From assembly GCF_014274465.1 (NCBI RefSeq), contig NZ_CP060394.1, positions 4,464,001 through 4,528,000 on the forward strand: a DNA stretch of 64,000 bases, in the 5' to 3' direction. The notes under the pieces were generated by a model. That model saw only the letters and a list, made by a program, of their open reading frames with translations. It made no database searches and was not told where the DNA came from. The translations under genes and the position numbers were made by a program. Origin of the DNA: Alloacidobacterium dinghuense. Its GTDB lineage: Bacteria; Acidobacteriota; Terriglobia; Terriglobales; Acidobacteriaceae. Of this stretch, positions 1-4,427 are shown in pieces (position 1 is the first letter of the stretch; each line of letters begins with the position of its first letter).

Positions 1-183
1 GTGATCGACGTACCGAGCCATCTCCTGCGCGCGAATCAGCGTGCATTCAATCTCGCTGTCGTCAATGGAGGGAAAGTAAGAGCGCCCGTTGGCGTAGATG
101 TTCCAGCCCGCGCGCTGGAACAGCGCAATCGTCGCATCCTGCAGGCTGCCTTTGGGAATCCCGAGCTTCAGCTTGTTCGCCAT
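1..183 (-). CDS. hisG: ATP phosphoribosyltransferase, N-terminal part (cut by window edge)
   Basis: First 61 codons of the enzyme that condenses ATP with PRPP, the first committed step of histidine synthesis. The translation begins [18 protein letters not shown] and continues with an FPSIDD stretch and [11 protein letters not shown], typical of the HisG catalytic N-terminus; the rest lies outside the window. Its ATG shares one base with the hisI stop codon (TGATG), so the two genes should be translationally coupled. It belongs to the leftward his operon that starts at the attenuator near 730. Family assignment is by recognition of the N-terminus only; long versus short HisG form cannot be decided from this fragment. 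Confidence 0.88.
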
Positions 184-533
184 CAGCGCACCTCCGCCGT
201 GGCATTAACCGCAATCGGCCGCGTAAAGCAGCTCACCGTGCCTTCGTGGCAGACGAGGCCATCGCCTTCTACCTGCACCCGGTAGAGAACCGTGTCCTGG
301 TCGCAGTCCGTCGAGGCCTCAATCACGCGCAGCCGATTGCCGCTCGTCTCGCCCTTCATCCACAGCTTCTGGCGCGTGCGGCTCCAGAAGGTTACGAAGC
401 CGGTTTCCAGAGTCTTCCTGTAGCTCGCGTCATTCTGGAAGCCAACCATCAGCACCTGACCGGTTGCGGCATCCTGCACAATGGCCGGAACCAGGCCATC
501 CATCTTGGCAAAATCAATTGCTATGTCCGTCAT
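183..533 (-). CDS. hisI: Phosphoribosyl-AMP cyclohydrolase
   Basis: Opens the purine ring of PR-AMP in histidine synthesis. The 116-residue product is a stand-alone HisI without the HisE domain. Metal-site residues are in place: D76, D78 and D80 around C77, then C95 and C102 in the VCHEG and SCFTRP segments, matching the zinc and magnesium ligands known in this family. I chose the ATG at 533 because AAGGA lies six bases upstream; an in-frame ATG at 554 would add seven poor residues. It is the first structural gene after the attenuator and overlaps hisG by one base. Having hisI first is unlike the enteric order but fits scattered his operons of other phyla. Confidence 0.95.
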
Positions 534-588: not shown

Positions 589-625
589 AAAAAGCCCGCC
601 TGCGCTTAGCGCATCGGCGGGCTTT
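589..625 (-). terminator. Histidine attenuator terminator hairpin
   Basis: Read on the minus strand, AAAGCCCGCC and GGCGGGCTTT form a ten-base-pair stem, with a second short GCGC stem in the loop, followed by a run of five T. It lies between the leader-peptide stop (648) and hisI (533), the position of an attenuator. Formation of this hairpin when the leader is fully translated would stop transcription before hisI. A competing anti-terminator fold was not worked out. Confidence 0.85.
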
Positions 626-647
626 AGGTCCTTTGATCTCTGGCTTT

Positions 648-728
648 TTACTCTAGGCCATAAGGATTCGCCGACACGCTCGTCACGTGATGATGGTGGT
701 GATGACGATGATGGCGGTGAATCTGCAT
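648..728 (-). CDS. hisL: his operon leader peptide (26 aa, nine His)
   Basis: Short ORF ATG CAG ATT CAC CGC CAT CAT CGT followed by six consecutive His codons and then VTSVSANPYGLE and TAA. Nine of the first 14 residues are histidine. A strong intrinsic terminator follows 23 bases later and then hisI-hisG, which is the classical arrangement of histidine-sensing transcription attenuation: ribosome stalling at His codons when charged tRNA-His is scarce would favour read-through. An in-frame TAG directly precedes the ATG, so no longer version exists. No Shine-Dalgarno sequence is visible, and the putative promoter puts the transcript start only a few bases upstream, so it may be translated from a leaderless mRNA. 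The ORF is too short for routine gene calling. Confidence 0.9.
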   Translation of the reverse strand: MQIHRHHRHHHHHHVTSVSANPYGLE

Positions 729-736
729 CTAGGTTG

Positions 737-766
737 ACCATAAGTCGGATCGCCGGATCATGTCAA
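737..766 (-). promoter_or_regulatory. Putative sigma70-type promoter of the his operon
   Basis: On the minus strand TTGACA (766-761, perfect -35) is followed after 18 bases by TATGGT (742-737, 4 of 6 matches to TATAAT). Initiation about seven bases further would fall near 730, two or so bases before the leader-peptide ATG at 728. The position fits, but the assignment is from sequence alone. Confidence 0.6.
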
Positions 767-781
767 CTCTGTCATCAGAAA

Positions 782-1939
782 TTATCCTGCAAATCTCTCA
801 GCGGAAAGGAAATCAATCGGCCATTTCGTCCGGCCTTCGATGGCCAGATCCGCCAACACCTCGCCGATCACCGGCGCGAACTTGAAGCCGTGACCGGAGA
901 AGCCGCATGCCACGCTCACCTGCGCGTAGTCAGGGTGCCGGGAGACGATGAAGTGCTCATCCGGAGTCATGGTGTACATGCAGGTCGCTGCATGCAGCAG
1001 CCTGCCGTTCAGCGCTGGAATGTACGCGGCGAGCTGCTCACGGATCTCGGCGATATCGCGCGCCTGATACTTCCGCTCGATCGTTTCCGCCGTGCAGATA
1101 TCTCCTCCGGAATGCATGGCGGCCTTCACCCCGCAGTGCTCGCAATCGGTCGCCGGAAATCCGTAGAAGACTGTATCGGCGCCGGTCCGCCAGATGTAGA
1201 TCGGAAAGCAGTCGGGCGAGAAGTCGGCGATGCCTTCCGGCGGATCGAACCACGCCATCACATGCCGGCGCACATGCAAGGGCAGAGACAGCTTCAGCAG
1301 GCTCTCTGCCCATGCGCCCGGCGCGATCACCAGATGCCCGGCTTCGTAAGTGCCCTTCGCGGTCGTCACGCGAACTGCGCCGCCGTTTGTGATCTGCCAG
1401 TTGGAAACGGGCTCTTCGAAGTGCAGCGCTGCTCCACCTTGCATTGCCAGTCCCCGTGTTGCTAATCCCAGGTGCGCTGCTACCGCCGCTTCAGGGCGCA
1501 GAAATCCAGCCTGCGTTTCGTACACTGCGCAATCCTCAGCGCGTGGATGGAGGACGGGAAATCTCCGCCGGATTTCTTTTTGGTCAAGCAGCTCATGGGC
1601 GAGATTGTGCTCGCGTGCGCTGCGCAGGCTGCCTTGCACCACGTCGCTGTCTTCGGTGCCGAGATACAATCCTCCGGCTATCGTGAGCAGTTGCGCCTGC
1701 GTATCGCGCTCCAGCTGTTCCCACAGTTCGTAGGAGCGCAACACCAGCGGCACGTAGCCGGGATTCTCGTGGTAGGCCTGCCGGATGATGCGCGAGCTGC
1801 CGTGTGACGAGCCGCGATCATGTGCGGGCGTGAAGCGCTCCAAACCCAGCACACGCTTCCCACGGCGGGCGAGATGATACGCCGCAGCGCTGCCCATTCC
1901 ACCTAGCCCGATGACGATGACGTCGTATGTCTCTGCCAT
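782..1939 (-). CDS. Monomeric sarcosine oxidase / N-methyl-L-tryptophan oxidase family flavoenzyme
   Basis: A 385-residue FAD-dependent amine oxidase that would demethylate an N-methyl amino acid, giving formaldehyde and hydrogen peroxide. The N-terminus has the Rossmann signature VIGLGGMGSAAAYHLARRG and the GSSHGSSR segment of the family. C320, in CMYTMTPDEHF, matches the cysteine that carries covalently bound FAD in monomeric sarcosine oxidase, and CGFSGHGFK follows near the C-terminus. Length is typical. It stands alone upstream of the his promoter in the same orientation, with no pathway partner nearby, so the actual substrate (sarcosine, N-methyltryptophan or pipecolate) cannot be told. 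Confidence 0.9.
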   Translation of the reverse strand: MAETYDVIVIGLGGMGSAAAYHLARRGKRVLGLERFTPAHDRGSSHGSSRIIRQAYHENPGYVPLVLRSYELWEQLERDTQAQLLTIAGGLYLGTEDSDVVQGSLRSAREHNLAHELLDQKEIRRRFPVLHPRAEDCAVYETQAGFLRPEAAVAAHLGLATRGLAMQGGAALHFEEPVSNWQITNGGAVRVTTAKGTYEAGHLVIAPGAWAESLLKLSLPLHVRRHVMAWFDPPEGIADFSPDCFPIYIWRTGADTVFYGFPATDCEHCGVKAAMHSGGDICTAETIERKYQARDIAEIREQLAAYIPALNGRLLHAATCMYTMTPDEHFIVSRHPDYAQVSVACGFSGHGFKFAPVIGEVLADLAIEGRTKWPIDFLSAERFAG

Positions 1940-2046: not shown

Positions 2047-2736
2047 TTAATCAGCCAGAGCCTGCAGCTTCCTAGCTTCTAATACGTCGGCCTCGAACTC
2101 TTGAAGAAACCTAATGTGAAAATGGGTAGGCAATGGCGCCTCAGAGAAATATTTGTTCTCGGAGAATAGCGTACCGACACGATGCTGGATGACTAGTCCG
2201 GCTATGCCGTTTTTTCTGACGTTAGGGTCGTGGCCAATTGTGAGTGACATTGGTTGATAGTGAAGGCCGTCAAACAAATCACCCATTACCTCCGATGTCT
2301 TTTCTCCAAGTCTCTGCAATGGCGAACTAAAAGAGGCCAATAACGGAAAGTCCGTTTGAAACGTAATGTCGCTAATATAACCCCATTTTCTAAACATTCC
2401 CGGCCGATAAGAAAGTCTAAGGGCATCACGCCCCCACTCCATCATTTCAAGTAGAATCTTCTGAGAATCATCCGTCGAAGACAGAGTATCGACGTAGATC
2501 GCCTGGTCATAAATCACCAAAGAATCGATTAGTAGGCCATTTGCTTTGCCAGACTCAAATTTGACTCCGTTCTTCGTGAAGTCGAAGTCTTCAGGTTTCT
2601 GAGGAAAAACCGCAAACTGGTAACGCTCGACAAGAGGAGCGACACAGTCTAAAAAGCGCACCCTGCCACCCAGATTAAGTTCATCTAGTTCAACCCTAGC
2701 CAGAGCACGCGCCTTAAGAATGGCCGTTATCTCCAT
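2047..2736 (-). CDS. Unknown protein, third gene of a toxin-antitoxin-like operon
   Basis: A 229-residue soluble-looking protein that I do not recognise. It starts MEITAILKARALARVELDEL and has no signal peptide, membrane segment or obvious catalytic motif; acidic and aromatic residues are spread evenly. Its ATG lies ten bases inside the end of the upstream XRE regulator gene, so it is almost certainly translated as part of that operon. Base composition is lower in GC than the housekeeping genes around it, suggesting acquisition. Possible roles are a partner of the toxin/regulator pair or a cargo gene; neither is supported by homology I can see. Confidence 0.7.
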   Translation of the reverse strand: MEITAILKARALARVELDELNLGGRVRFLDCVAPLVERYQFAVFPQKPEDFDFTKNGVKFESGKANGLLIDSLVIYDQAIYVDTLSSTDDSQKILLEMMEWGRDALRLSYRPGMFRKWGYISDITFQTDFPLLASFSSPLQRLGEKTSEVMGDLFDGLHYQPMSLTIGHDPNVRKNGIAGLVIQHRVGTLFSENKYFSEAPLPTHFHIRFLQEFEADVLEARKLQALAD

Positions 2737-3314
2737 ATGCTGTCCTCCGTTGCTAAAATTTGGGGCACTTGGTTTGCTTGCAGATTAATCGCAACTTGAG
2801 GGACTGCGGGCTGCATTGCTGGAGTCTGAGCGAGTTGCTTAGCCAGCTCTCTTTCGGCAGTTTGATCGATTGCCTGTCTTAGATAGAGATCAGCACCGGC
2901 AAAATTTTCTTGACCAGAGGGACGCAAGGGTCGGGTCCAAGTCAGGTCATCTTCCCTGAGACCCAGATCCTCCTCTCTAGGTACCCTTTCTAGTGATTGA
3001 CGACCGAAACGCACAACTTCATTGGGCAATGTCCCAAACGGTTCGAAAGACACCTTGAGCCTTAAATGAAACGCCCTAGCAATCTTGATGAGAGTTCTAA
3101 TGTTCCAAGACGAGTAGTTAGCATTTTCATAGCGAGATACGCCAGCTTGAGTCGTCCCGATGGCTTCTCCCAGGTCTGACTGGGTCATCTCGCGCTGTTC
3201 GCGAATGACCTTGATCTGTGAAGCTATGTAAGTATTTAAAAAGGATTCAGCGTATCCTTCAGAATATTCCGGATCGCGCAACTCACTTCTTAAGGCCGAT
3301 TCAATATCTCTCAT
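2727..3314 (-). CDS. XRE-family helix-turn-helix regulator, antitoxin-like
   Basis: DNA-binding protein with a Cro/CI helix-turn-helix at roughly residues 30-90: the IKVIREQREMTQSDLGEAIG segment followed by TTQAGVSRYEN, then RTLIKIARAF. The remaining 110 residues are Gln- and Pro-rich and not recognised. It follows a RelE/HigB-like gene with an overlap of about 14 bases and overlaps the next gene by ten, the layout of toxin-first (higBA-type) modules, where the XRE protein represses the operon and neutralises the toxin. Start is uncertain: an upstream GTG at 3338 is also possible. Paired repeats at 3691-3750 are candidate operators. Confidence 0.85.
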   Translation of the reverse strand: MRDIESALRSELRDPEYSEGYAESFLNTYIASQIKVIREQREMTQSDLGEAIGTTQAGVSRYENANYSSWNIRTLIKIARAFHLRLKVSFEPFGTLPNEVVRFGRQSLERVPREEDLGLREDDLTWTRPLRPSGQENFAGADLYLRQAIDQTAERELAKQLAQTPAMQPAVPQVAINLQANQVPQILATEDSIWR

Positions 3315-3696
3315 GTCCCGCTCGTCTCCTTTTGTCACTCAAAAGAATCTCCCTATTCCGAGTCGCCTCCGCAGCATCCGGAGTGAGTCTGAAATTGATC
3401 TCGATGGCGCCTAGCAGCAAGGTAAATTCTCCATCCATGTCGAATGGCCCTCTACAGAGCATCGGCCTGAGCATTCTCTGTCCATGAATAATCAGCTTGT
3501 AGATGTGTTTCTGCTTGTTGATCGGCCCAGCCAACAGTTTGGGAGGCAATGCGGTTCCGTGCAATTGCAGCATATCGAGTTTTTGGTTCAACTGCCCAAT
3601 GTCACGTTTCGTTATTCCTTCTTCCACAATCCACGTTTGAACGACGCTTCGATTTCTATTATCGGTGAAATCCCAAAGAACATGAGTCACAAACAT
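3301..3696 (-). CDS. Putative RelE/HigB-like toxin
   Basis: About 131 residues from the ATG at 3696 (an ATG at 3741 would give 146). The pattern LNQKLDMLQLHG-LPPKLLAGPINKQKHIYKLIIHG followed by a beta-rich RPMLCRGPF segment and a terminal charged helix resembles RelE-superfamily ribonucleases, in which a helical N-terminus leads into strands that contact the ribosome. The most convincing support is position: directly upstream of, and overlapping, an XRE regulator. AAGGTG sits very close to the chosen start. GC content is low for this genome. Activity and target are not shown by the sequence; a non-toxic relative is possible. Confidence 0.55.
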   Translation of the reverse strand: MFVTHVLWDFTDNRNRSVVQTWIVEEGITKRDIGQLNQKLDMLQLHGTALPPKLLAGPINKQKHIYKLIIHGQRMLRPMLCRGPFDMDGEFTLLLGAIEINFRLTPDAAEATRNREILLSDKRRRAGHERY

Positions 3697-3818: not shown

Positions 3819-4004
3819 GTCAAGTCCCTGAGAACTGCATCTTCACGCTAAGTTATTATTTCAAAATGGCTTATGTCACGAATAAAATTTGGCGTACCAT
3901 TTCGCTCAACCTGCTAAAATAGAAATAAGAGCATAAATCAAAAGAAACGCCCGCCAAAAGCGGGCGTTTTTCATTTGCAGGGAAACTGGGACCCTCCCGT
4001 AAGT
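3819..4004 (+). repeat. Composite interspersed repeat, copy 1
   Basis: Begins with TGTCAAGTCCCT, 70 bases before TTGGCGTACC, and from 3886 to 4004 is nearly identical to 4184-4303 (copy 2). It contains TTTCGCTCAACCTGCTAAAAT and an intrinsic terminator. It fills most of the gene-free stretch between the toxin-like operon and 4428. The copy stops within CCCTCCCGTAAGTC and lacks the downstream part found in copy 2. Confidence 0.8.
3946..3971 (+). terminator. Intrinsic terminator inside repeat copy 1
   Basis: AACGCCCGC, loop CAAAA, GCGGGCGTT, then a run of T. A nine-base-pair GC-rich stem with a U-tract is a strong rho-independent terminator for rightward transcription; runs of A on the other side make weak leftward activity possible. 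Confidence 0.75.
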
Positions 4005-4116
4005 CAGTTTTAGACTTCAGTGCGCCAGCAACCAAAACAGTCTCTCTTAATTCCTCATTTTTGGCAGAAATTTGCGCTTAAGGGCCCACAAACAGCAGAA
4101 AATCACACCAAAATGC

Positions 4117-4427
4117 TGTCAAGCCCCCTAGACTTCCAAATTTGACCTAAGTCACACATTTAAAAGGAAATAAATTCTCCGGTAATTTGGCGTACCATTT
4201 CGCTCAACCTGCTAAAATAGAAATAAGAGCATAAATCAAAAACGAACGCCCGCCAAAAGCGGGCGTTTTTCATTTCCAGGAGAATCGGACCCTCCCGTAA
4301 GTCGTTGAAAACACTAGAAACCACTTAACTCAAGCCGAATCATAGGGATAGCAGGGGATGATCCCCCGCTAAGTCGTTGAAAATAAATAAAGCAGCCCAC
4401 CCCATCCGGGGGAGGGGGAGGATACCC
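4117..4427 (+). repeat. Composite interspersed repeat, copy 2 (full length)
   Basis: Starts TGTCAAGCCCCCT, then TTGGCGTACC at 4187, the terminator at 4245-4270, GTAAGTCGTTGAAAACACTAGAA (4298-4320 region), the palindrome-containing GGGATAGCAGGGGATGATCC, a second CGCTAAGTCGTTGAAAAT and a G-rich tract ending in GGATACCC directly before the ATG at 4428. The same ordered blocks recur at 55625-55910 in front of another gene. It shows no coding capacity. I read it as a dispersed non-coding element carrying its own transcription signals; the CTAAGTCGTTGAAAA unit occurs twice per copy. Confidence 0.8.
4245..4270 (+). terminator. Intrinsic terminator inside repeat copy 2
   Basis: Same AACGCCCGC / GCGGGCGTT stem as in copy 1, with five T after it and A-rich sequence before it, so it may work in both directions. 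Confidence 0.75.

Follow-up and report, generated by a model that had tools for sequence, protein, structure and literature searches.

Organization of the his locus

The window, a stretch of 64,000 nucleotides analysed here, is part of an Acidobacteriaceae genome of 6.27 Mb; among named records, Acidobacteriales bin_2, Acidobacterium sp. S8 and Acidipila rosea come closest to it. At one end of the window, on the minus strand, an ORF of 26 codons, nine of which encode His (six of them consecutively), is placed between a promoter (TTGACA-18-TATGGT) and an intrinsic terminator, upstream of a histidine operon (Table 1). The initial annotation of this sequence had listed these elements and all are present. 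It described them as lying ahead of hisI-hisG: both gene identities were confirmed by curated models, but the operon is longer, with eight genes, hisI-G-D-C-B-H-F-A, and continues beyond the window. While hisI and hisG score above the model cutoffs, the other six his genes were identified by reading the sequences by eye. No hisE was seen in the eight-gene cluster (L005 4320-10554), where hisI has the short monofunctional form.

Table 1. Features of the attenuator region and its surroundings (positions in the window)
Feature	Position	Strand	Support
Sigma-70-type promoter: TTGACA (766-761), 18 nt spacer, TATGGT (742-737)	737..766	-	Box at a like distance in 126/132 relatives
Predicted +1 (A730, G729 or A728), coinciding with the leader ATG or preceding it by 1-2 nt	726..730	-	Deduced from the usual 7 ± 2 nt between -10 box and +1
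Leader peptide ORF, ATG at 728-726, product MQIHRHHRHHHHHHVTSVSANPYGLE and stop, without Shine-Dalgarno sequence	648..728	-	His leader kept in 132/132 family hisI upstream regions
Nine His control codons (4, 6, 7 and 9-14), with the run of six at 704-687	687..719	-	Conserved as a His cluster
1:2 hairpin (region 1, 723-702, in the His codons; region 2 side, 686-666)	666..723	-	Minimum-energy fold; covariation
Region 2, antiterminator 5′ strand, CGTGTCGGCG (third base of codon S17 to A20)	669..678	-	Uninterrupted 10-bp pairing with 619-610
Region 3, antiterminator 3′ strand, CGCCGATGCG, doubling as terminator 5′ arm	610..619	-	Pairs with region 2
Intrinsic terminator, AAAGCCCGCCGATGCGCTAAGCGCAGGCGGGCTTT plus U-run (GC-rich hairpin 625-591, U-run ending at 589)	589..625	-	Found in 123/132 relatives; covariation
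hisI, first structural gene, with its own Shine-Dalgarno sequence (AAGGA, 544-540, 6 nt before the ATG at 533)	183..533	-	NF000768 above cutoff
hisG (start of; hisD-C-B-H-F-A beyond the window)	1..183	-	TIGR00070 above cutoff
FAD-dependent N-methyl-L-tryptophan oxidase family gene	1939..782	-	
Two overlapping genes	2047..3338	-	
Two 120-nt direct copies	3886..4005 and 4184..4303		80% identical

The oxidase family gene is co-directional with the his promoter, and read-through from it into the attenuator is possible. Of the two overlapping genes, one encodes a helix-turn-helix protein with weak antitoxin-type matches and the other a 229-amino-acid protein without an NCBIfam match; the pair is perhaps a two-gene regulatory or toxin-antitoxin module. 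A spacing of 298 nt separates the direct copies, and a similar short minus-strand frame is present in each.

Conservation and phylogenetic distribution

The hisI upstream regions of 70 genomes of the family and 80 named records provided 132 distinct loci. We scored a short ORF as a His leader when a stretch of eight residues contained four or more His. Every one of these loci has such a leader, and 109 have at least six His; the same criterion retrieved none on the antisense strands and 5 in 660 dinucleotide shuffles. Loss of the His run in relatives, named in the initial annotation as an outcome that would speak against attenuation, did not occur. By a strict rule, a terminator with both hairpin and U-run is found in 123 of the loci. 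Cultured bacteria that carry the leader include Terriglobus roseus DSM 18391, Acidipila rosea and Edaphobacter modestus.

The wider distribution of the element was searched with a covariance model built from the leader-terminator region, which matches 183 of 250 genomes of the class. We read 20 of the class matches from other families: the His leader precedes hisI and the promoter spacing is mostly the same, with one family retaining mainly the -10 box. In a sample of the phylum, 51 of 297 genomes match the model, 21 of them outside the class. A His leader is present in 16 of the 18 distant matches that were read in other classes, and promoter boxes usually lie a short distance upstream of its ATG. 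The gene that follows these 16 leaders is hisI in ten cases, hisG in one (L260) and hisZ in one (L264), while in four the first listed ORF is in another frame. Distant matches L265 and L269, with no recognisable His leader, were taken as false or degraded.

Secondary matches of the covariance model within one genome were mostly partial or weak, many involving the terminator end only, and were taken as chance; the attenuator seems to be single-copy. Across 396 genomes of the phylum, a loose pattern search (promoter, ATG and three His codons) yielded mostly chance matches and was dropped as evidence. When a like pattern was used for Trp-run leaders in this genome, there was no excess over the control (8 matches versus 6).

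Promoter spacing and predicted leaderless translation

At sigma-70 promoters, transcription begins about 7 nt (7 ± 2) past the -10 box. Here, the gap between TATGGT and the leader ATG is 8 nt (CAACCTAG), and this arrangement is shared by the family: the distance from the start of TTGAC to the leader ATG is 34 to 45 nt in 126 of 132 loci, with a mode at 38, and the -10 hexamer ends 6 to 12 nt before the ATG in 119 of 130, with a mode at 8. Since the -10 box is modally 8 nt from the ATG and the start is expected about 7 nt past this box, the predicted 5′ UTR is only 0-3 nt long. Within the window, a promoter at such a distance precedes 3 of 1981 ATGs, and of these three only the leader ATG has an exact TTGACA.

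As initially annotated, the leader has no Shine-Dalgarno sequence in this genome, and none is conserved at the leader across the family. The longest match to the anti-Shine-Dalgarno sequence has a mean of 1.5 nt at the leader, below the background value of 1.9 nt, versus 4.2 nt at hisI. Two marks of a leaderless gene, a -10 box about 7-9 nt before the start codon and no Shine-Dalgarno sequence, are found here. Leaderless translation is plausible, since about 13% of genes were predicted to be leaderless in three acidobacterial genomes (PMC3160421). The proposal that the leader may be translated from a leaderless mRNA is supported by the promoter-ATG distance, which is fixed in the family, in the class and in most loci of other classes, and by the absence of a Shine-Dalgarno sequence where hisI has one. 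We consider that the leader is very probably translated in this way, with a predicted 5′ UTR of 0-3 nt.

Two details of the annotation need to be revised. It regarded a near-zero 5′ UTR as unusual, but the fixed promoter-ATG spacing suggests that such a UTR would be the rule across the phylum. It also drew attention to a TAG directly before the ATG, which is present here but is not conserved in relatives (often CAG or others) and so needs no explanation.

Could these features instead belong to a conventional His attenuator whose 5′ UTR is of normal length? Transcription would then start further upstream, at a second promoter or by read-through from the oxidase gene, and the leader would be translated by Shine-Dalgarno-independent internal initiation. 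Only 16 nt separate the end of the oxidase gene from the -35 box, with no strong terminator evident in between, so that some read-through transcripts are likely. However, the spacing between the consensus TTGACA/TAxxxT pair and the ATG is held in nearly all relatives and in other families and classes, and no Shine-Dalgarno sequence is conserved at the leader. An attenuator of this conventional kind appears improbable.

Whether the leaderless start is itself part of the regulation is a more speculative matter. We see about even chances that, phylum-wide, leaderless initiation is ancestral and under selection in His attenuation, loading of the ribosome at the 5′ end being required and the promoter-ATG distance itself being selected as a component of the switch.

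Alternative RNA structures and the conserved peptide tail

The RNA from leader to terminator folds at -54.3 kcal/mol, versus -36.8 kcal/mol for shuffled sequences (z = -5.1). The initial annotation proposed looking for exclusive antiterminator and terminator structures; there are three mutually exclusive helices, 1:2, 2:3 and 3:4, each with compensatory changes. Among 54 diverse relatives, the 2:3 helix is 88.8% paired in register versus 26-57% when slid. Relative to shuffles that leave sequence relatedness in, the 2:3 helix has 27 cells changed on both sides versus 11.9 (0 of 500 shuffles as high), and the 1:2 helix 86 versus 58, or 25-45 when slid. The terminator helix 3:4 also covaries. Terminator arms swapped between loci pair worse than the leader and terminator of the same locus (z = -9.7).

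The antiterminator strand lies within the leader codons, which bears on the origin of a conserved tail, V-S/P-A, in the peptide. Such a tail might denote a small protein that acts in its own right, for example by binding metal through the His run, and attenuator peptides can indeed gain functions in trans, as did peTrpL of Sinorhizobium (PMC7298713). However, substitutions in the tail follow changes in the terminator arm: at codon 19, Ser TCG or TCA goes with CGA or TGA, Pro CCG with CGG and Leu TTG with TAA. Peptide length and C-terminus, on the other hand, vary freely among the family loci, and the downstream gene is a his gene wherever it was identified. From these alignments, the peptide keeps V-S/P-A because the tail codons base-pair with the 5′ arm of the terminator and change in concert with it, and conservation of the tail is a reflection of RNA pairing. 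We hold an independent small protein to be very unlikely. A histidine-sensing T-box, or another RNA-only switch with an accidental His-rich ORF, is of negligible likelihood and already contradicted. In some Actinobacteria, his genes are under T-box control (PMC3896937), but in the 20 loci tested no Rfam family reached its cutoff, the T-box among them, and the transcript, at about 140 nt, is too short to hold one.

In folding simulations with region 1 masked, a mimic of the stalled ribosome, the 2:3 helix forms in 103 of 123 loci, versus 66 of 123 without masking; the complete RNA adopts the terminator in 121 of 123. In this genome, RNA extending up to region 3 favours 2:3 at equilibrium even without a stalled ribosome, before arm 4 exists, so that termination would have to rely on the passing ribosome or on the folding kinetics of 1:2. 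The leader stop codon is 7 codons past region 2, and a ribosome resting there would therefore scarcely cover region 2. The full fold also pairs AUGCA at the 5′ end with UGCAU after the U-run, the latter bases being beyond the termination point.

Proposed mechanism

The locus combines a short His-rich ORF upstream of the operon, an intrinsic terminator, and mutually exclusive, covarying 1:2 and antiterminator helices. The annotation had recognised a classical attenuation layout, and the retention of the His run in 132 of 132 loci and of the terminator in 123, along with the covarying exclusive helices, argues for ribosome-mediated attenuation. As far as comparison of sequences can tell, it is highly likely that this element is a ribosome-mediated transcription attenuator of the his operon, with its leader peptide translated from a leaderless mRNA (5′ UTR of 0-3 nt).

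We infer the following scheme, including the exact start site, the mode of loading and the direction of the response to histidine. RNA polymerase would initiate at the leader AUG or immediately upstream of it, with a ribosome, presumably 70S, loading directly on the 5′ end. With ample charged His-tRNA, the ribosome would pass the His codons and region 2, after which 1:2 and the terminator 3:4 would form and transcription would stop before hisI. With His-tRNA in short supply, it would stall in the His run and cover region 1, leaving region 2 (codons SVSA) free to pair with region 3; the terminator could then not form and hisI-G-D-C-B-H-F-A would be transcribed. Transcripts that are not translated would terminate by default.

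Relation to known attenuators

We found no description of such a His attenuator in Acidobacteria in the open-access literature, and in a 2010 survey almost no attenuator predicted in this phylum had an assigned function (PMC2965389). His attenuators and leaderless attenuators are each known, and it is their phylum-wide combination that appears to be undescribed. This is a sequence-defined regulatory RNA with an obvious ligand readout, found phylum-wide, and no Rfam model covers the leader. The many independent lineages in which it occurs offer a natural test of whether leaderless translation can keep ribosome and RNA polymerase as tightly coupled as attenuation requires. The peptide tail also exemplifies amino-acid conservation that stems from RNA structure in the codons.

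His attenuators are classical in Proteobacteria, and His leaders of hisS and hisZ have been reported in Bacilli (PMC2965389). The enteric his attenuator (hisL; RF00514) resembles the present one in its His-run leader peptide, alternative hairpins, intrinsic terminator and downstream his operon. The two are unrelated in sequence at the Rfam level: membership of RF00514 His_leader was rejected, with 21.3 bits in the window against a gathering cutoff of 49, as was the Thr_leader family (26 bits, below cutoff). The acidobacterial element differs in its layout of three helices, in which leader codons supply the antiterminator strand, in a start predicted to be leaderless where that of hisL is SD-led, and in having hisI instead of hisG as first gene. 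The Bacilli leaders likewise combine a His run with a terminator outside Proteobacteria, and their hisZ target recurs in the acidobacterial locus L264; however, no sequence relation is shown and a leaderless start was not reported there.

Attenuator peptides with leaderless starts have been described in Streptomyces (PMC8079986) and for trpL of Sinorhizobium meliloti (PMC7298713), and Cys-rich leaders were proposed in mycobacteria (PMC4633059). In the actinobacterial cases (leuL, trpL and ilvL of Streptomyces lividans, and the mycobacterial leaders), the leader ORF is at the 5′ end of the transcript, ahead of an amino-acid operon, as here, but the phylum and the amino acids differ, none being histidine, and several lack a clear intrinsic terminator. 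The S. meliloti trpL transcript likewise starts directly at the leader ATG and is subject to classic attenuation; it differs in responding to tryptophan, in belonging to Alphaproteobacteria and in encoding a 14-residue peptide with functions in trans.
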